From: a virus
Virus record (IMG/VR): IMGVR_UViG_3300037833_000023
Location: 1 to 41,213 of that record
DNA length: 41,213 nucleotides
Reading direction: 5' to 3' (one strand)
Part shown: positions 8,947 through 25,829 of the stretch, one piece after another
How the letters are laid out: the number at the start of each line of letters is the position of its first letter
Numbering within the stretch: position 1 is the stretch's first letter
Notes under the pieces: model-generated
The model's input: only the letters and a program-made list of their open reading frames with translations
Told to the model about the DNA's origin: nothing
Databases searched by the model: none
Position numbers and translations under genes: made by a program

Positions 8947-9711
8947 TTACAGCTCCGGCCGGGCGCGGCCCAGCGTCTTGCCGTTGAACTCCACGCACAG
9001 CTGCTTGCCCCTAACGTGCTCGCCCGTCACCTTCTTCCAGCTGTTGGCCTGAGCCCACTGCTCGATGTTGGCCAGCGCGTTGAGCACCAGGCGCATGCGC
9101 CCCTTGGACTGCTCGGCGATCGCGGCGATCACCGCGTCGTCCATCGGCAAGGCGGGGGCGTCGTGCGCATCGCCCAGGGAGGCCTTGGCGGCCACCGCGG
9201 CCTTTACGTCACCCAGGCTGAGCAGCTGGAACTCGACCACCCGCGCCACGCGGCTCGCGATGTGCTCGTAGCGGGCCACCTTCTGGCCGAAGCGGTCCAT
9301 GCCCACCAGGAAGCACATGGTTCCGGTGATGTCGGTGATGTCGCGCACCACCTCCAGCAGGCTGGCCGTGCTGCGCACCAGGTGGTCGGCCTCGTCCAGC
9401 ATCAGCGGGGCCATGTCCACCGCCAGCTTGCCGATGATGCGGGCCTGCACCTCCTGGTTGCGCCCACGCTTGTCCAGGCCCATGCGGTCGGCCAGCTCGT
9501 CGAGCAGGGCGCGCTTGGTCCAGGTCTCTTTACAGCGCACGAACACCGCGCCGTTCTCGGCCGCCCAGCGCTCGGTCAGCTCGGACTTGCCCACGCCGTA
9601 GGGCCCCTGGATGATCACCAGCCCCGCCTCGCGCGCGCCGCGCCGCGCCACCACCTTCTGCGCCTCGGCCAGACGCTTGAAGTTCTCCGTGTGGACAAAA
9701 CCTTTTCTCAT
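8947..9711 (-). CDS. B: MuB-type AAA+ ATPase, transposition target selector
   Basis: 254 residues. Walker A is GPYGVGKS at residues 36-43, Walker B LMLDEAD at about 103-109, and DITGTMCFLVGMDRFGQKVA plus SRVARVVEF continue the AAA+ core. MuB forms ATP-dependent filaments on DNA, recruits target sites and stimulates the transposase. The start is an ATG preceded by AAGGAG. Mu B is about 312 residues with an N-terminal DNA-binding domain; this protein begins only about 36 residues before the P-loop, so that domain is absent. It follows the transposase gene after a 70-nt spacer that contains a perfect hairpin. Confidence 0.93.
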   Translation of the reverse strand: MRKGFVHTENFKRLAEAQKVVARRGAREAGLVIIQGPYGVGKSELTERWAAENGAVFVRCKETWTKRALLDELADRMGLDKRGRNQEVQARIIGKLAVDMAPLMLDEADHLVRSTASLLEVVRDITDITGTMCFLVGMDRFGQKVARYEHIASRVARVVEFQLLSLGDVKAAVAAKASLGDAHDAPALPMDDAVIAAIAEQSKGRMRLVLNALANIEQWAQANSWKKVTGEHVRGKQLCVEFNGKTLGRARPEL

Positions 9712-9763
9712 GGCTACATTGCTCCTTGCTTGTTGCTCGTTCTCAATGACACGCAGGCACGCT

Positions 9764-9787
9764 CGGTGAAGGCGGCAACCTTCACCG
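9764..9787 (-). promoter_or_regulatory. Perfect hairpin across the end of the transposase gene
   Basis: Arms CGGTGAAGG and CCTTCACCG (9 bp, no mismatch) with a six-base loop sit in the A-B spacer and overlap the A stop codon. There is no T-run on either side, so an intrinsic terminator is unlikely. It could set the A to B expression ratio by pausing, RNase protection or uncoupling translation; that is inference. Confidence 0.55.
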
Positions 9788-11965
9788 GGCACTCTTAAAA
9801 CCGGCTTCCCCTTCCACCCACTGCAGCCCCCGGCTGGCGAAGTACTCGGCCAGCGACGCGTAGTCGTCCCCCTGCACGTACTCGGCCAGCCACTGCGCGT
9901 CGGCGTCGTCCCAGCTGCCGCGGTTGCGCAGCAGCCACTCGTAGCGGTCGCTGGCGTTGTCGAAGAAAGGCCTGCCCGCAGCGGCTTGCACCGGCTGCGC
10001 CTGTGTCGGGAGTTCAGGGAGGTAGGAGGAGGAGAAAGTCCCCTCCACAGTGGGGCGCAGCACCACGGGGGCGCTGGGCTCCGGCAGGGAAAACACTTGC
10101 GCGCCGTGGACGCCACCCAGCTCGCGCTGGGCCAGGTCCATCTGGCCTTGCAGTCGCTTCATGCGCGCGTCCACGCGCTTCTCGCGGGCCATCTGGATCA
10201 CCGGCTGGGCGAAGAAGGCCTTGCGGTTGGCGTTCCAGTCGGCCTGGCACACGTACTCGCCCTGCAGGTCGAAGATCAGCACGAAGTTGGGGTTGTGGAT
10301 GTCGTAGTGCACGCGCACCTGTTGACCGTCCACCGCCATCAGCTCGTTGCTGAAGTACACCTGGTTGAAGAACTGCACCTCGCCGCGCTTGGCCGTGCGC
10401 AGCACCGCCGGCATGAACAGCATGCGCAGCTCCAGCTCGCTCAGCTTGAACTGCTGCTCACGGTCCAGCATTGCGTCCCAGGCCTCGCTGGGCGTCATGT
10501 GCTTGCCCACGTTCGGCCCGTTGGTGTGCTTGGGCAGGCTGCGGTGGCGGTGCTCGGTGTTGTACTCGCGCACCGCCTTGTCCACCGCGTCGATGAACTG
10601 CTGCCAGCTGGGGGCCTTGTTCGACAGCTGGATCACCTCGCCGGTGGCTTCGGCCCGGCGCAGCGCGCGCTGCTCGCTGGCCAGCTCGGCGCTCACCTTT
10701 CGCAGGCTGCCGGCGTCGACCTTCTTGCCCTGGAAGGTGGCGAACTGCGCCGCGCAGGGAATGGCCCATGTCGCCCAGCTGCGCTCGATCAGGCCGCGCG
10801 CCTGCGGGTTGCCCGGCAGGCCGGTGCGGTGCTCGGAGCCAAGGCGGGCGATCACGCCGGTAATGGGGCAGTCCAGCTGCTTGGCCGTCTCGCCGGCGCC
10901 GTTGTCGCTGTAAATGATGGCCGGCACGCCCTCGTTGCCCACTGCATGGCGCAGGGCGTCGCCCACCGCGATCACGTTCTCGGACAGGGCCACCGACCAG
11001 CCGCAGATCTTGCGGCTGGCGCCGTCGATCACGGCCGTCAGCTCGGGGGCGAACGGCGCGCCGTGGTCCGGGTGCCGCACTTTGGCCTTGAAGGTGTGGC
11101 CGTCGATCACCCACACGTCCAGGGGCTTGAGCACGCTGGTGTCGCGGCGCTTGTGCGGCAGCAACGCGGCCCGCTCAGATCCGCTGTGGCGCGCCTTGAT
11201 CAGCGCCACTTTGTCCAGCTTGGGCAGCACGCGGCGGGCCCGGGCGTACAACTGCTTCCAGGTGTCCTTGGGGCGGCCCAGGCCCTTGGTCACGTCCTGC
11301 GCGGCCTGGCTCAGGTTGCGGAAGCGCCCTTCCTTGGAGTGATACAGCGCCAGCACTCGGGCGACGTCCTCGCCCACCACCAGGCCTACTGCGGTGCCGT
11401 CCGCCTCCGCCGGCAGCAGCCCCCACCAGCCCTGGGCGCGGTAGGTACTCAGCCAGCGCTGCAGGGTGCGGTCGCTGACGGACGCATCGCGGGCGCGCTG
11501 GTTGGCCGTGCGCGCCATCGTTGCCAGGTCGGGCGAGCATTGGCCGCTGGCCAGCTGCAGCGCGAGCAGGGCGACCGCCTTCTTGACCCCGTGCATCGGC
11601 TCCAGCTGCAGCACCTGGTTCACCAGGCCCTGGCGGGCGTCGGCGACGGCCTTGTCGGCCTGGCTGGGCGGGCGGCGCGTGGTCGCGGGGGCGCGGTCCT
11701 GGGTATTCACCAGGGCGCGCGGCTCGGTCTGCGGCGCCTCGGCGTGCGCGGCGATCGTCAGGGTGGCGCGCGCCACCTGGTCGATCATCAGCGCGCGCTT
11801 GGTCTCCGCGGGCAGTGCCGCCGCGTCGTACTCTTGCCCGCCGCCGCGGCCGGCGCGGGGACGGGCGGGGACGCCCAAGCGCGTGAGCCGCTCGCGAGCG
11901 CGGCGCTCGGTGCCCGGCATGCCTGGAAGTCCGGCGAGCTCGCGGGCTGTAAGCCAGGTGCTCAT
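9782..11965 (-). CDS. A: MuA-type DDE transposase
   Basis: 727 residues (MuA is 663). N-terminal Mu-type winged helix (TWLTARELAGLPGMPGTERR) for end or enhancer binding; helical end-binding region about 100-250; catalytic core with Asp288 (VWVIDGH), Asp354 (IYSDNGAG) and Glu394 (RGLIERSW), the DDE triad; the D-D spacing of 66 is close to MuA. A C-terminal beta-barrel (VQFFNQVYFSNELMAVDGQQ) and a B-contacting tail follow. It cuts the phage ends and joins them to target DNA in the cytoplasm. The ATG follows GGAGGGAGAGGCA and overlaps the Ner-like stop. Confidence 0.96.
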   Translation of the reverse strand: MSTWLTARELAGLPGMPGTERRARERLTRLGVPARPRAGRGGGQEYDAAALPAETKRALMIDQVARATLTIAAHAEAPQTEPRALVNTQDRAPATTRRPPSQADKAVADARQGLVNQVLQLEPMHGVKKAVALLALQLASGQCSPDLATMARTANQRARDASVSDRTLQRWLSTYRAQGWWGLLPAEADGTAVGLVVGEDVARVLALYHSKEGRFRNLSQAAQDVTKGLGRPKDTWKQLYARARRVLPKLDKVALIKARHSGSERAALLPHKRRDTSVLKPLDVWVIDGHTFKAKVRHPDHGAPFAPELTAVIDGASRKICGWSVALSENVIAVGDALRHAVGNEGVPAIIYSDNGAGETAKQLDCPITGVIARLGSEHRTGLPGNPQARGLIERSWATWAIPCAAQFATFQGKKVDAGSLRKVSAELASEQRALRRAEATGEVIQLSNKAPSWQQFIDAVDKAVREYNTEHRHRSLPKHTNGPNVGKHMTPSEAWDAMLDREQQFKLSELELRMLFMPAVLRTAKRGEVQFFNQVYFSNELMAVDGQQVRVHYDIHNPNFVLIFDLQGEYVCQADWNANRKAFFAQPVIQMAREKRVDARMKRLQGQMDLAQRELGGVHGAQVFSLPEPSAPVVLRPTVEGTFSSSYLPELPTQAQPVQAAAGRPFFDNASDRYEWLLRNRGSWDDADAQWLAEYVQGDDYASLAEYFASRGLQWVEGEAGFKSAR

Positions 11966-12300
11966 TGCCTCTCCCTCCGTCCGGTGGCTGCACCCGGCCG
12001 CGCCTCCGCGTTTGCTTTGCGCGGCATGGTCACCTTGATCTTCCGAGTGAGCTGGAAAGCTCGCTGGCGATCGGACGGGTTCAGGTAGCGCGAGGGCCAG
12101 ATGTCCCTCGGCTGAACGCCTAGGGCACGGGCGACCACCTGTTCGGCCGCCAGCCACGGACTTGTGAGCACGCGCTGAATATGGCTGTAGCCGTTTTGGG
12201 CGGCAAGCTGCCGCAGGCTGGTGCCACGCTTACGCAGGGCAGCAACTACATCCGCCGGATGCCAATCCGCGTGGGCGATTGCCGTCTTTCTTGTGCTCAT
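11962..12300 (-). CDS. ner: Ner/Nlp-like DNA-binding regulator, first early gene
   Basis: 112 residues from the ATG MSTRKTAIAHADWHPADVVA; ATGs two and six codons upstream are possible. ADVVAALRKRGTSLRQLAAQ, NGYSHIQRVLTSPWLAAEQV, VARALGVQPRDIWPSRY is the Ner/SfsB (Nlp) family fold, whose Mu member turns down early and repressor promoters. The C-terminal basic tail is longer than in Mu Ner. It is the first gene of the minus-strand operon, and no Shine-Dalgarno precedes it; the inferred transcript would start at or next to this ATG. Its stop overlaps the transposase start. Confidence 0.88.
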   Translation of the reverse strand: MSTRKTAIAHADWHPADVVAALRKRGTSLRQLAAQNGYSHIQRVLTSPWLAAEQVVARALGVQPRDIWPSRYLNPSDRQRAFQLTRKIKVTMPRKANAEARPGAATGRRERQ

Positions 12301-22166: not shown

Positions 22167-22201
22167 TCTTTGCGAGCTCAGCAGCAAAGTTCGCTCCTCA
22201 C

Positions 22202-22215
22202 GTTGATCGATCAAC
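22202..22215. promoter_or_regulatory. Perfect 14-bp palindrome with two GATC sites
   Basis: GTTGATCGATCAAC lies between the copy-2 hairpin and the AGGAG of the capsid block's first gene. Two GATC sites lie side by side in it. It could bind a dimeric regulator, and methylation at GATC could modulate this if the phage or host methylase recognises GATC. The perfect symmetry is observed; the role is not. Confidence 0.5.
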
Positions 22216-22227
22216 CAGGAGCAACTT

Positions 22228-22563
22228 ATGAAATCCGCACGTCTCGCAGTCCTGATCGCCGGCCTCGGGGCCATCTGCATGTCGCCCGAGCCCGGTGCTG
22301 CCGGAGGCGGCCCGACGACCACACCTCAAGGCGCCACCTCCGGCGCAAAGGCCATGACGGCCGCGGACGCAGCCAAGCAGGTCAAGCGCCCGGTCACCAC
22401 TCGCGAAAAAGCGGGCACCGATGGCGAAGGCAAGGCCGTCTACAAGGACGTGACCAAGCACGTGGCGGTAGCCGCCTCCGAAGTGCTGGACTTCAAGGAC
22501 TACGGCTCGCACGTGGTCGTGGTCACCAAGGACGGCAAGAAGTTCAGCTCGGCCGAGGAGTAA
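22228..22563 (+). CDS. Small capsid-operon protein, hydrophobic N-terminus
   Basis: 111 residues. After a hydrophobic start (MKSARLAVLIAGLGAICMSP) comes a low-complexity Gly/Pro/Thr/Lys part and a small beta-like C-terminus (DFKDYGSHVVVVTKDGKKFS). AGGAG precedes the ATG. Genes of this type are commonly seen just upstream of the protease or capsid gene in Mu-like siphophages, without a known role. The N-terminus resembles a signal peptide but with no convincing cleavage site or lipobox. Function unknown. Confidence 0.75.
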   Translation: MKSARLAVLIAGLGAICMSPEPGAAGGGPTTTPQGATSGAKAMTAADAAKQVKRPVTTREKAGTDGEGKAVYKDVTKHVAVAASEVLDFKDYGSHVVVVTKDGKKFSSAEE

Positions 22564-22569
22564 GTCGGC

Positions 22570-24987
22570 ATGAAGCTCGCCCTCCTTGTCGCTGCCCTGG
22601 CCGCCTCCGGTGGCCTGCAGGGCCGCGACTTGATCGACACCCACATGCGCGAGGCGCAGAAGACGCCCGAGCGCGACTTCCGCTCCCTGATCGACATGGC
22701 CAGGGGCGCCGTCGACCAGGTCGTCAACGCCGGCAAGATGCCCGGCGAGCGCCGCTACGTCTCCATCGAGGCGATGTACAGCGACCGCATCGTGATCGAG
22801 CTGGACGGCAAGCACTGGCAGTACGCCTACAGCCTCAAGCCGGTCAACGGCGTCGAGACGATGGTGCTGGAGTCGCCTGTCCAGGTGGTGAACCAGTTCG
22901 TGGCCGTGGTCACGCCTGGCGCCACCACCAGCGCCAAGCTGGCCGAGGCACTGCGCGGCATGGAGGCCGGCGAGGTCGCCCTGGTGGAGGCTCAAGAAGG
23001 CTGCATCCAGGTCACGATCATCAAGGCAGGCGCCAGCGGCAACAACAACTACTACCCCGACTCGGTGCTCAAGGAGGCCGTGCCGATGTTCGAGGGCACC
23101 CGCGTCTTCACCAAAAGCGACGCGGAGCACATCAAGGGCGGCGGCAAGGACGTCCGCAACCTGATCGGCGGCATCTACGACGTCAAGTTCGTCGAAGGAA
23201 CCGGGCCTGACACCGGCAGCCTGGTCGGCACCTTCAAGGCGCTGGATCCCAAGGACTCCGTCGTCACCAAGATGGTCGAGGCTGTCCGCCGGGGCATGCA
23301 GAACCTGCTGGGCCTATCGATCGACGCCGATGGCAAGACCAAGAAACGTGTGCAGGGCAACAAGACCCTGCGCGAAGCCGTCAAGTTCACGAAGGTGAAC
23401 TCGGTGGACCTGATTGTCGAACCGGGCGCTGGCGGCGGCCTGGATCGTTTGACCGAAGCCGCTGCCGAAACTCACCAAGGAGAAACGACCATGCCCCTGT
23501 GGAAACAACGCCTGCTGGAGGCCATCAAGGCCAAGGACGCAGCCAAACACGCGACCATAGATGCCGCCACCATCGGCGACGACGACCTGGTCAAGCTGGC
23601 CGAAGCGATCGGGATCTCCGTCGTCGCTGCCAACGCCGACCGTCTCACAGAGGCGCAAGGTGACAACGCGCCCGTCACCCGCGCCGAGCTGCAACTGCTG
23701 CAGCTGCGCCAGACGGCCGCCACGCGCATCGCCGCGAGCAAGCTGCCCCAGCCGGCCAAGGACCGCCTGCAGGCCGACTTCGCCGGCCGCGAGCGCTTCG
23801 TCGAGGCCGACATCGACTCCGCTGTCAAGGCCGAAGGCGACTACCTGGCCCGCTTCACCGAAAGCGGCACCGTCCGCGTGCCGACCTTCGGCGCCGGCAG
23901 CATCCAGGTAGGCGACCGCAGTGTGGCCATCAAGGACATGCTGGACGCGTTCTTCGACCCGTCCCATGCCAACCACCGCGATGTGCGCTCGTTCAAGGAG
24001 TGCTACATCGAGATCACGGGCGACCGCCGCGTGACGGGCTTGATGGCCAACGTGGACCGCTCGCGCCTGGCTGAAAGCCTGGGCGACGCGTACCGCGAAG
24101 CGATCGATAGCTCGACCTTCGCGGACGCACTCGGCAACAGTATCACCCGCCGCATGCAGGCCGTGTTCACGGGACTGACCGACCTGCAGGCCTGGCGCAA
24201 GGTGGCCGTGGTCGGCCAAGCGAACGACTTCCGCAGCCAGGAGCGTGTGCGCATCGGCGGCTACGGCAACCTGCCGGCCGTCGCCGAGAGCGGCGCCTAC
24301 GCGGCGCTCACCTCCCCGGGCGACGACAAGGCGACCTACGCGGTCACCAAGCGCGGCGGCACGGAGTCCGTGACGCTGGAGACGATCAAGAACGACGACG
24401 TGCGCGCCATTCGCCAGATCCCGCAGGAGCTGGCCCTGGCCGCGGCCAACACGCTGTACGAGTTCGTGTTCGACTTCTTCCGCACGAACCCGAACGCCTA
24501 CGACGGCACGGCGATCTACCACGCCTCACACAACAACCTGTTCACGGCCGCCCTGGACGCCACCGCCTTCGCGGCCCACCGCCTGGCGATGGTCAAGCAG
24601 ACGCGCGCCGGCAGCTCCAAGCGCCTGGGCATCAGCCCGAAGAGCGTCCTGGTGCCGTTTGAGCTGCAGGAGACGGCCTACAACCTGTTCGTGCGCAACC
24701 AGAACCTGGACAAGACCTACGTCCAGTCGATCAACCCGGAAGTGATTCCGGTGTCGTACTGGACCGACGCGAACGACTGGGCGACGGTCTGCGACCCCAT
24801 GGTGCTGCCGGTGCTGGAGATCGGCTTCCTGGACGGCAAGGAAGACCCGGAGCTGTTCGTCCAGGACATGCCCAACGTCGGCTCGCTGTTCAGCAACGAC
24901 AAGATCACTTGGAAGATCCGCCACATCTACGGCGGCTCCGACCTGGTGGATGGCTACAAGGGCACGACCAAGGCGGTCGTCGCCTAA
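22570..24987 (+). CDS. Prohead protease - scaffold - major capsid fusion protein
   Basis: 805 residues. Residues 130-290 form a serine prohead protease: His187 (SDAEHIKGG), Ser250 (LGLSIDADG) and Asp280 (VNSVDLIVEPGAGGG) are the probable catalytic residues, with NNYYPDSVLKEAVPMFEGTR as landmark. About 308-460 is helical scaffold/delta-domain. About 465-805 is an HK97-type major capsid fold (RVPTFGAGSIQVGDRSVAIK ... VIPVSYWTDANDW). GAGGAG lies nine bases before the ATG. An internal ATG with its own AAGGAG (see next entry) probably supplies the bulk of capsid. The fusion order protease-scaffold-capsid is directly read. Confidence 0.9.
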   Translation: MKLALLVAALAASGGLQGRDLIDTHMREAQKTPERDFRSLIDMARGAVDQVVNAGKMPGERRYVSIEAMYSDRIVIELDGKHWQYAYSLKPVNGVETMVLESPVQVVNQFVAVVTPGATTSAKLAEALRGMEAGEVALVEAQEGCIQVTIIKAGASGNNNYYPDSVLKEAVPMFEGTRVFTKSDAEHIKGGGKDVRNLIGGIYDVKFVEGTGPDTGSLVGTFKALDPKDSVVTKMVEAVRRGMQNLLGLSIDADGKTKKRVQGNKTLREAVKFTKVNSVDLIVEPGAGGGLDRLTEAAAETHQGETTMPLWKQRLLEAIKAKDAAKHATIDAATIGDDDLVKLAEAIGISVVAANADRLTEAQGDNAPVTRAELQLLQLRQTAATRIAASKLPQPAKDRLQADFAGRERFVEADIDSAVKAEGDYLARFTESGTVRVPTFGAGSIQVGDRSVAIKDMLDAFFDPSHANHRDVRSFKECYIEITGDRRVTGLMANVDRSRLAESLGDAYREAIDSSTFADALGNSITRRMQAVFTGLTDLQAWRKVAVVGQANDFRSQERVRIGGYGNLPAVAESGAYAALTSPGDDKATYAVTKRGGTESVTLETIKNDDVRAIRQIPQELALAAANTLYEFVFDFFRTNPNAYDGTAIYHASHNNLFTAALDATAFAAHRLAMVKQTRAGSSKRLGISPKSVLVPFELQETAYNLFVRNQNLDKTYVQSINPEVIPVSYWTDANDWATVCDPMVLPVLEIGFLDGKEDPELFVQDMPNVGSLFSNDKITWKIRHIYGGSDLVDGYKGTTKAVVA
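23491..24987 (+). CDS. Nested scaffold-major capsid protein from an internal start
   Basis: 498 residues in the same frame as the fusion, starting MPLWKQRLLEAIKAKDAAKH at codon 308. AAGGAG lies eight bases upstream, among the best Shine-Dalgarno/spacing in the window, which is not needed for reading through. This suggests that most capsid subunits are made without the protease domain, and a small amount of fusion supplies the protease. Final maturation would cleave the scaffold part. Needs protein evidence; the start is inferred from the ribosome-binding site. Confidence 0.72.
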   Translation: MPLWKQRLLEAIKAKDAAKHATIDAATIGDDDLVKLAEAIGISVVAANADRLTEAQGDNAPVTRAELQLLQLRQTAATRIAASKLPQPAKDRLQADFAGRERFVEADIDSAVKAEGDYLARFTESGTVRVPTFGAGSIQVGDRSVAIKDMLDAFFDPSHANHRDVRSFKECYIEITGDRRVTGLMANVDRSRLAESLGDAYREAIDSSTFADALGNSITRRMQAVFTGLTDLQAWRKVAVVGQANDFRSQERVRIGGYGNLPAVAESGAYAALTSPGDDKATYAVTKRGGTESVTLETIKNDDVRAIRQIPQELALAAANTLYEFVFDFFRTNPNAYDGTAIYHASHNNLFTAALDATAFAAHRLAMVKQTRAGSSKRLGISPKSVLVPFELQETAYNLFVRNQNLDKTYVQSINPEVIPVSYWTDANDWATVCDPMVLPVLEIGFLDGKEDPELFVQDMPNVGSLFSNDKITWKIRHIYGGSDLVDGYKGTTKAVVA

Positions 24988-25063
24988 CGGGACTCACTCC
25001 CCCCGCCGGGGTGGCTCCCCGGTGCCAAGTGCAGCCTACGGGCCGCCGGCACCCATAGCCACT

Positions 25064-25088
25064 CCCGCCTGCGCAAGCAGGCGGGTTT
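25064..25088 (+). terminator. Intrinsic terminator-like hairpin after the capsid gene
   Basis: Perfect 9-bp stem CCCGCCTGC / GCAGGCGGG with a GCAA tetraloop and a short TTT tail. A second hairpin CCGGGG / CCCCGG lies at 25006-25022. Together they fill the 149-nt gap between the capsid gene and the next gene. A partial terminator would reduce tail expression relative to capsid. Confidence 0.7.
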
Positions 25089-25136
25089 CACAAGGCTCCT
25101 TCACCCGCCGGTGCCTTTTGAAACCGACCCACCCAC

Positions 25137-25829
25137 ATGGCCTTCGCAGACTTCCAGACCCTCGTCGACAAGATGGTCCGCGCCCCTGGCGGCACGGAAA
25201 CCATCTCGACGGCCGACCGCGACCAGGCGATCGAGCTGGCGCGCCTGCGTTACAGCGCCGACTGCGAGCGAGAGTTGGTCGAGGACGTCGCCTGGGCCGC
25301 GGACGGCTACTTCGCGCCGCTGCCGGCGGGCTGGGTAGACGGCTGCTACATCAAGCAGGCCGAGTTCCCGATCGGCGAGCAGCCCGCGGCCCTGGTCGCC
25401 CTGGCGATCTACGGCACGCCCAGCGACCAGCAGCTGGTGACCGAAGACGCCCTGCAGGCCGGCGACCTGGTGCGGGTCACCTATGCGGCGCCGCACCTGC
25501 TGAGCGATGACCCCGCCGCGGACACCATCCCGGCCGTTCACCGCGAGGCAGTCGCCAGCTACGCGGCCAGCCTGCTGTGCGGCCAGCTGGCCGCCCACTA
25601 CAGCGGCGAGCGCGAGACCTCGATCAACGCTGACGGCAGCAACACCGAAAGCCGCAGCCGTAACTTCGCCTTCCGCGCCAAGGACTACAGGGCCGCCTAC
25701 TACGCCGGCATCGGCAAGGCGGATCCGCGCGGTGACAAGGGCCAGGCAGTGGCCGGCGACCCCGCGGCCAGCGTCAGCAGCTGGACAGGCCGCCAGCGCA
25801 GCACCTTCGGTCGGGAGAGCCTGCTGTGA
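25137..25829 (+). CDS. Head-tail connector-like protein
   Basis: 230 residues. DFQTLVDKMVRAPGGTETIS, DQAIELARLRYSADCERELV, then EAVASYAASLLCGQLAAHYS resemble the helical connector (adaptor) proteins that follow the major capsid gene in Mu-like and other siphophages. The C-terminal tail is Ser/Thr/Arg rich. No good Shine-Dalgarno is seen (the leader is CCCACCCAC). The assignment leans on synteny and helical pattern. Confidence 0.75.
   Translation: MAFADFQTLVDKMVRAPGGTETISTADRDQAIELARLRYSADCERELVEDVAWAADGYFAPLPAGWVDGCYIKQAEFPIGEQPAALVALAIYGTPSDQQLVTEDALQAGDLVRVTYAAPHLLSDDPAADTIPAVHREAVASYAASLLCGQLAAHYSGERETSINADGSNTESRSRNFAFRAKDYRAAYYAGIGKADPRGDKGQAVAGDPAASVSSWTGRQRSTFGRESLL

Follow-up and report, generated by a model that had tools for sequence, protein, structure and literature searches.

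Head assembly requires that a few copies of the prohead protease end up in a shell built from hundreds of identical subunits, and a gene in which protease and capsid protein are fused one to one seems to be an exception. Such a gene lies at positions 22570-24987 (plus strand) of the stretch analysed here, referred to as the window (41,213 nucleotides, IMG/VR record IMGVR_UViG_3300037833_000023): the frame is open throughout and encodes 805 amino acids (87.2 kDa). The original prediction was that this frame carries a serine prohead protease and an HK97-type capsid, and that an in-frame ATG at 23491 opens a nested gene, from which the capsid could be made in larger amounts. Does the capsid protein have a start of its own inside the fusion? 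The window itself is from a Mu-like transposable phage, because a transposase (phrog_310, 7e-148) and a transposition protein (phrog_296, 7e-43) are matched on the minus strand at 8950-12157.

Residues 33-805 match PHROG 29592, a fusion family of unknown function (E 7.4e-191, profile search), and residues 144-448 match PHROG 15531, 'head maturation protease' (E 1.1e-14). Residues 1-307 were modelled with AlphaFold2 on an alignment of 45 sequences (pLDDT 83.6). The first 110 residues or so (22570-22899) are modelled as a separate alpha/beta domain of low conservation, and a conserved (F/L)xE|A motif (Glu140) stands between it and the protease domain, residues 138-298 (22981-23463). The latter aligns with T4 gp21 (5jbl_B) at a VIA Z of 10.4 (rmsd 3.3 A, 132 residues aligned) and with herpesvirus assemblins at lower values (4.3-7.8, pseudorabies pUL26N reaching 7.8); in BFVD, a library of viral models, capsid maturation proteases were among the named matches near the top. 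A PDB sequence search with the protease profile returned no match, hhalign against T4 gp21 gave a weak match (probability 2%), and Foldseek of the model against the PDB gave no protease at E <= 0.001. The assignment was made because of the modelled fold together with the PHROG 15531 and BFVD matches, and the link to gp21 by sequence alone is weak. Pfam CLP_protease found no match in the window protein, whereas other fusions do match it. His187 (23128-23130), present in 77 of 78 aligned homologues, and Ser250 in the motif GLSID (23317-23319), present in all 78, are the candidate catalytic residues; both are invariant in A1. On these models, the protease half is a predicted prohead protease of the gp21/assemblin type with conserved His and Ser candidates. 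In one homologue (L048:724-2968) the frame is broken near residue 190, within the protease domain, while neither the start further on nor the capsid frame is damaged; this may be a sequencing error or a protease-less form.

The second half, residues 308-805, was modelled on an alignment of 55 sequences (pLDDT 84.2) as an HK97 fold preceded by a helical part at the N-terminal end. The helical part is a scaffold-like delta domain (residues 308-431, 23491-23862). The shell domain covers residues ~458-805 (23941-24984); Pfam PF25209 (Phage_capsid_4) matches residues 510-801 (6e-41), and the capsid model matches 1ohg by Foldseek (4.5e-7) and HK97 prohead II by VIA (Z 12.6), the top row being an encapsulin (15.0). 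A PDB sequence search with the capsid profile gave two weak matches only. The order of the parts, N-terminal domain, protease, linker, delta and shell, therefore follows from the profile matches and both models. The predicted union of a serine prohead protease and an HK97-type capsid in a single 805-residue frame is borne out.

Two starts can be recognized in this frame. The 5' start at 22570 is preceded by GAGGAG (22555-22560; spacer 9 nt) and the internal ATG at 23491, codon 308, by AAGGAG (23477-23482), with 8 nt between motif and ATG; the second Shine-Dalgarno (SD) sequence and its good spacing are thus as predicted. The two SD duplexes are equal in strength (-8.4 and -8.5 kcal/mol, respectively), while the RNA folding of the 50 bases around each start is -17.2 kcal/mol at 22570 versus -5.5 kcal/mol at 23491. 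The predicted nested gene (23491-24987, plus strand) would encode delta and HK97 capsid, 498 amino acids and 54.4 kDa, with a product beginning MPLWKQ.

To see whether this start is under selection, the best 80 of 145 IMG/VR matches were compared. Adding the window and removing two sequences that begin after the start (L053 and L055) left 79 usable sequences, and clustering at 90% identity left 60, among which L049, with a duplicated or recombined capsid gene, was kept. One of the six search patterns (ETTMPLWK) spans the start methionine, a possible bias; among the 79 rows, only the window and L002 carry this peptide. The junction ATG was taken as the one with the best SD within a span of eight codons, and the same choice was applied to every other column as a control. 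An in-frame ATG was found from three codons before to four codons after the position of Met308 in all 79 sequences drawn from these best 80 matches. Its median SD duplex energy was -6.6, a value reached by 5.9% of 1,094 other in-frame ATGs, whose mean is -2.75. Among the 60 non-redundant sequences (still from the best 80 of 145), the junction ATG was present in 60 and an SD of -5 kcal/mol or better in 59; the best distant column with ATG and SD, inside the protease region, reached 27 of 59.

This signal is kept in a segment that otherwise changes fast. For the same best 80 of 145 matches, the linker from Glu296 to the internal methionine is the least conserved of the segments compared (18% pairwise identity, versus 51% for the protease and 60% for the capsid), and it has 15 different lengths, from 5 to 35 residues, with frame, SD and start still kept. 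Dissimilar linker peptides (QGE, KEE, EGN, QED, PEE and others) all encode the SD motif. When the eight upstream codons were randomized synonymously, the observed SD (-7.23) was stronger than expected (-5.70; Wilcoxon 9e-6), and this held for 49 of the 60 sequences from the best 80 matches; at 852 other in-frame ATGs used as a control there was no such excess (-2.81 observed, -2.99 randomized). Taken one by one, most sequences do not reach significance (median p 0.37), because much of the SD motif is already dictated by the encoded peptide. Local RNA folding at the junction was weaker than the mean of the same ORF in all 60 (mean z 1.65), and the internal start was less folded than the 5' start in 35 of the 36 sequences among the 60 that had an assignable SD-bearing 5' start, both counts again being drawn from the best 80 of 145. 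Comparison of these sequences thus reveals selection on the internal start.

Homologues in cellular genomes were scanned as well, again with the pattern across the start methionine among those used, giving 44 loci, mostly in Comamonadaceae and other Proteobacteria, and two in Actinobacteria. One of them (L450) begins after the start and was left out, so that 43 were counted. A junction start was present in 42, as ATG in 39 and as GTG in three, and an SD of -5 or better in 39 of the 43; weak junction SDs (-2.9 to -4.1) were seen in L412, L436 and L439. The GTG starts, in a Rhodocyclaceae bacterium (L425), Nonomuraea soli (L452) and Planobispora longispora (L454), follow AGGAGG, AAGGAGG and AAGGAG, respectively, with energies of -8.8 to -11.7. 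Since these 3 of 43 homologues have GTG with a strong SD, what is conserved is the start codon and not methionine. The one locus without a junction start, L446, was entered as a miss and is chimeric: in L446:3638-5029, an N-terminal stretch that is ParB-like by eye replaces protease and delta and is fused to the capsid domain, next to what appears, also by eye, to be a transposase fragment. It is probably a degenerate recombinant.

The capsid part is related (tblastn against phage records) to those of Gifsy-2, mEp043, Stenotrophomonas S1, Rhodobacter RcKemmy, Bordetella PY223 and others. Among seven fusion ORFs inspected, namely the near relative Mae-JY22 and six others, all had an SD-preceded ATG just past the protease part. 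For relatives of Gifsy-2, S1 and PY223, at most the best 80 of 518, 161 and 313 matches were taken, respectively, and one S1 search pattern similarly spanned the start. In these samples of the best loci, a column test placed the start at the junction in 18 of 18 sequences of the Gifsy-2 type (best distant column 13 of 18), in 27 of 35 of the PY223 type (best distant column 7) and in 4 of 13 of the S1 type, a tie with another column. The column test was replaced by a wider junction-window test on 102 complete, non-redundant fusions with an SD cut-off of -5.3 or lower, in which the span tested was chosen after the junction data had been viewed; a further 24 loci, for which the best ATG of a wide window had been taken, were left out of the counts. 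ATG and SD were found at the junction in 77 of 86 fusions of the S1 and PY223 types, compared to 27.8% of 1,280 control windows, and in 16 of 16 of the Gifsy-2 type, compared to 22.3% of 238 control windows. At a cut-off of -7.0, the figures were 46 of 86 compared to 6.5%, and 8 of 16 compared to 5.0%. Pfam identified ClpP in six of eight upstream parts of fusions, S78 in one and nothing in one; related capsid parts are therefore joined to unrelated proteases at the same joint.

Nine fusions of the S1 and PY223 types fell below the SD threshold. In one of them (L204) the start is GTG with AAGGAG, and in two (L247 and L233) the motif is weaker; each of the remaining six has ATG at the joint, preceded by a weak SD or by no SD. 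SD usage was measured over up to 20 kb per record for five of these six (L231, L199, L244, L203 and L200) and for L206 and L202. A different ATG alone brings L206 past the threshold, and L202 owes its -6.9 to a motif that lies some 14 nt away from its ATG. Across these seven records (L325-L331), an SD of -5 or better precedes 0 to 14% of genes and gene leaders are 45 to 55% A, compared to SD use at 38 to 82% of genes in the window and four SD-using homologues. Initiation in the seven resembles the Bacteroidota type. Nine junction ATGs of this kind, those of the seven fusions with measured SD usage and those of L196 and L239, have 58% A in the preceding 15 bases, compared to 30% for 135 other ATGs in frame (P = 1.7e-6). 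As records with little SD use have A-rich leaders at the junction, the joint follows whichever initiation signal the phage uses; neither a conserved peptide nor a pause site would explain this.

From these data, 23491 is very likely the start from which ribosomes translate a nested capsid gene, the full-length product serving as a protease carrier that co-assembles with the short one. The nested gene put forward in the original prediction has thus gained in weight, as homologues keep the start signal in the fastest-changing part of the gene, also as GTG, and in the phage's own mode of initiation. All capsid protein might instead come from the 805-residue precursor by self-cleavage near residue 296, SD and ATG being a relic of an ancestral two-gene layout or a matter of chance; homologues do keep the frame open across the linker, and the conserved (L/M/F)xE at 296 could part the domains. 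A relic, however, would be expected to decay where identity is down to 18% and 15 lengths occur, whereas SD and start are kept in 59 of 60 homologues (from the best 80 of 145) and as GTG in three genomes, and the A-rich form of the start persists in phages that hardly use SDs. This makes the polyprotein very unlikely. Scarcely credible is a purine-rich pause site at which the ribosome would stall, giving the protease time to fold ahead of capsid-domain synthesis, with an ATG that is incidental. The motif does sit at a domain boundary, but pausing needs no start codon, and yet ATG or GTG is present in 42 of 43 homologues from cellular genomes; moreover, where phages do without SDs, the motif vanishes and the ATG with its A-rich leader remains.

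Two other possibilities accept the short protein and differ in its amount or its origin. It could be a minor or regulatory form, most shell subunits being long; the nearly equal SDs in the window (-8.4 and -8.5) would allow for this. We consider it unlikely, as the internal site is far less folded than the 5' site in the window, and in 35 of 36 homologues from the best 80 of 145, and as hundreds of protease domains per shell would presumably be costly. The short form could also be translated from a separate mRNA made from an internal promoter, not by internal initiation on the long one. There is a parallel in T4 gene 17, annotated with both internal transcription and in-frame translation, but a search for sigma-70-like promoters, the one type covered, found none in 22200-25300, and this origin is highly improbable.

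For the preferred reading, that of a nested gene and a protease carrier, we propose the following course of events. Ribosomes would read one mRNA region from two in-frame starts. Initiation at 22570 would yield the 87-kDa protein, which has the prohead protease as its N-terminal and a capsid subunit as its C-terminal part, and initiation at 23491 the 54-kDa delta-plus-capsid protein, the equivalent of HK97 gp5. By analogy with lambda C/Nu3 and herpesvirus UL26/UL26.5 as regards the two products and their ratio, we infer that both proteins are made, with the short form in excess. Long and short forms would co-assemble through their common delta and capsid parts, and the protease would therefore be built into each procapsid as a minority of the subunits. 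Once the procapsid has formed, cleavage after (L/F/M)xE by the gp21-like protease would release the protease near Glu296 and trim delta near Glu431. T4 gp21 cleaves after L/I-X-E (PMC9026906). The candidate release site is Glu296 in LTE|A (23455-23457), where Glu is found in 60 of 60 homologues from the best 80 of 145 and L, I, F or M stands two residues before it in 58; the candidate maturation site is Glu431 in FTE|S (23860-23862), with Glu in 55 of 60 from the same set. A conserved (L/M/F)xE with A or S as the next residue is present at Glu140 (between N-terminal domain and protease), Glu296 (protease and linker) and Glu431 (delta and shell), and also at 502 and 510. L/I/F/M-x-E motifs are found at 169 and 284 in the protease and, besides those at 502 and 510, at 477 in the capsid part; the candidate sites are not unique, because such motifs also occur inside these domains. 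The mature capsid protein, as predicted from these motifs, could start at residue 432 (residues 432-805, 41.0 kDa) or at 511 (32.3 kDa).

Parts of this arrangement have precedents. Lambda C/Nu3 is a nested protease-scaffold gene, reportedly described by Shaw and Murialdo in 1980. As in the window, where the nested product is predicted from sequence, its protease is N-terminal and its scaffold C-terminal, with an in-frame nested product; unlike the window, this product is scaffold only and capsid protein E has a separate gene, whereas the window's would be capsid protein plus delta domain. Herpesvirus UL26 and UL26.5 are in-frame overlapping genes with a common 3' end, and the nested product is the scaffold, according to PMC4498786; an N-terminal protease of assemblin fold and a release site between protease and scaffold correspond to the modelled protease and the candidate release site of the window, but the capsid gene is separate. 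As in both systems, the window has a conserved in-frame start downstream of the protease, while its predicted nested product, with an HK97 domain, is not a capsid-free scaffold.

Fusions of all three parts are known too. The paper on Gifsy-2 is said to speak of a 'tripartite capsid gene'. Pseudomonas phage MD8 gp5 is likewise a tripartite capsid gene, a single gene for which the relevant portion of PMC8508860 mentions no internal start. As far as these descriptions go, Gifsy-2 and MD8 resemble the window in having protease, scaffold and HK97-fold capsid in one ORF, and differ from it in that their protease is ClpP-like and the window's gp21/assemblin-like. In Gifsy-2 and its relatives, our scan found an internal junction start, as in the window. 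In HK97, the capsid protein carries a delta domain at its N-terminus and the protease is a separate product encoded upstream, as proposed for the window, but the two are made from adjacent genes (gp4/gp5) and not from a fusion with a nested start (PMC8508860). T4 gp21 has the protease fold in common with the window, and an internal translation start is annotated in gene 21 (also in PMC9026906); it differs in that this start shortens the protease and makes no capsid, gene 23 for the capsid being separate. Nested protease/scaffold genes and tripartite capsid genes were thus already known. A nested start for the capsid protein itself is apparently new, as no description of an internal start in a protease-capsid fusion was found in the open-licence literature, a scope that leaves out the Gifsy-2 paper.

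It is probable, if less so than for the window's own gene, that phage protease-capsid fusions in general are nested gene pairs and not polyproteins, whatever the protease clan (gp21/assemblin-, S78- or ClpP-like), with a capsid start at the junction written in the initiation dialect of the host, be it an SD or an A-rich leader without one. If this rule is true, the protease half may be swapped at the joint while the capsid start stays, and the 'capsid-protease fusion' annotations of databases miss the real start of the capsid protein, whose true N-terminus the nested start would predict for many of them. A conserved nested start would remove the one-to-one exception and provide a testable switch of stoichiometry, two starts on one mRNA, extending the nested-gene logic of lambda and herpesviruses to the capsid protein itself. 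At two loci (L429:6157-7242 and L049:5577-6599), the fusion gene is immediately followed by another capsid ORF or capsid match that has no protease part, possibly a second shell protein or a decaying duplicate.
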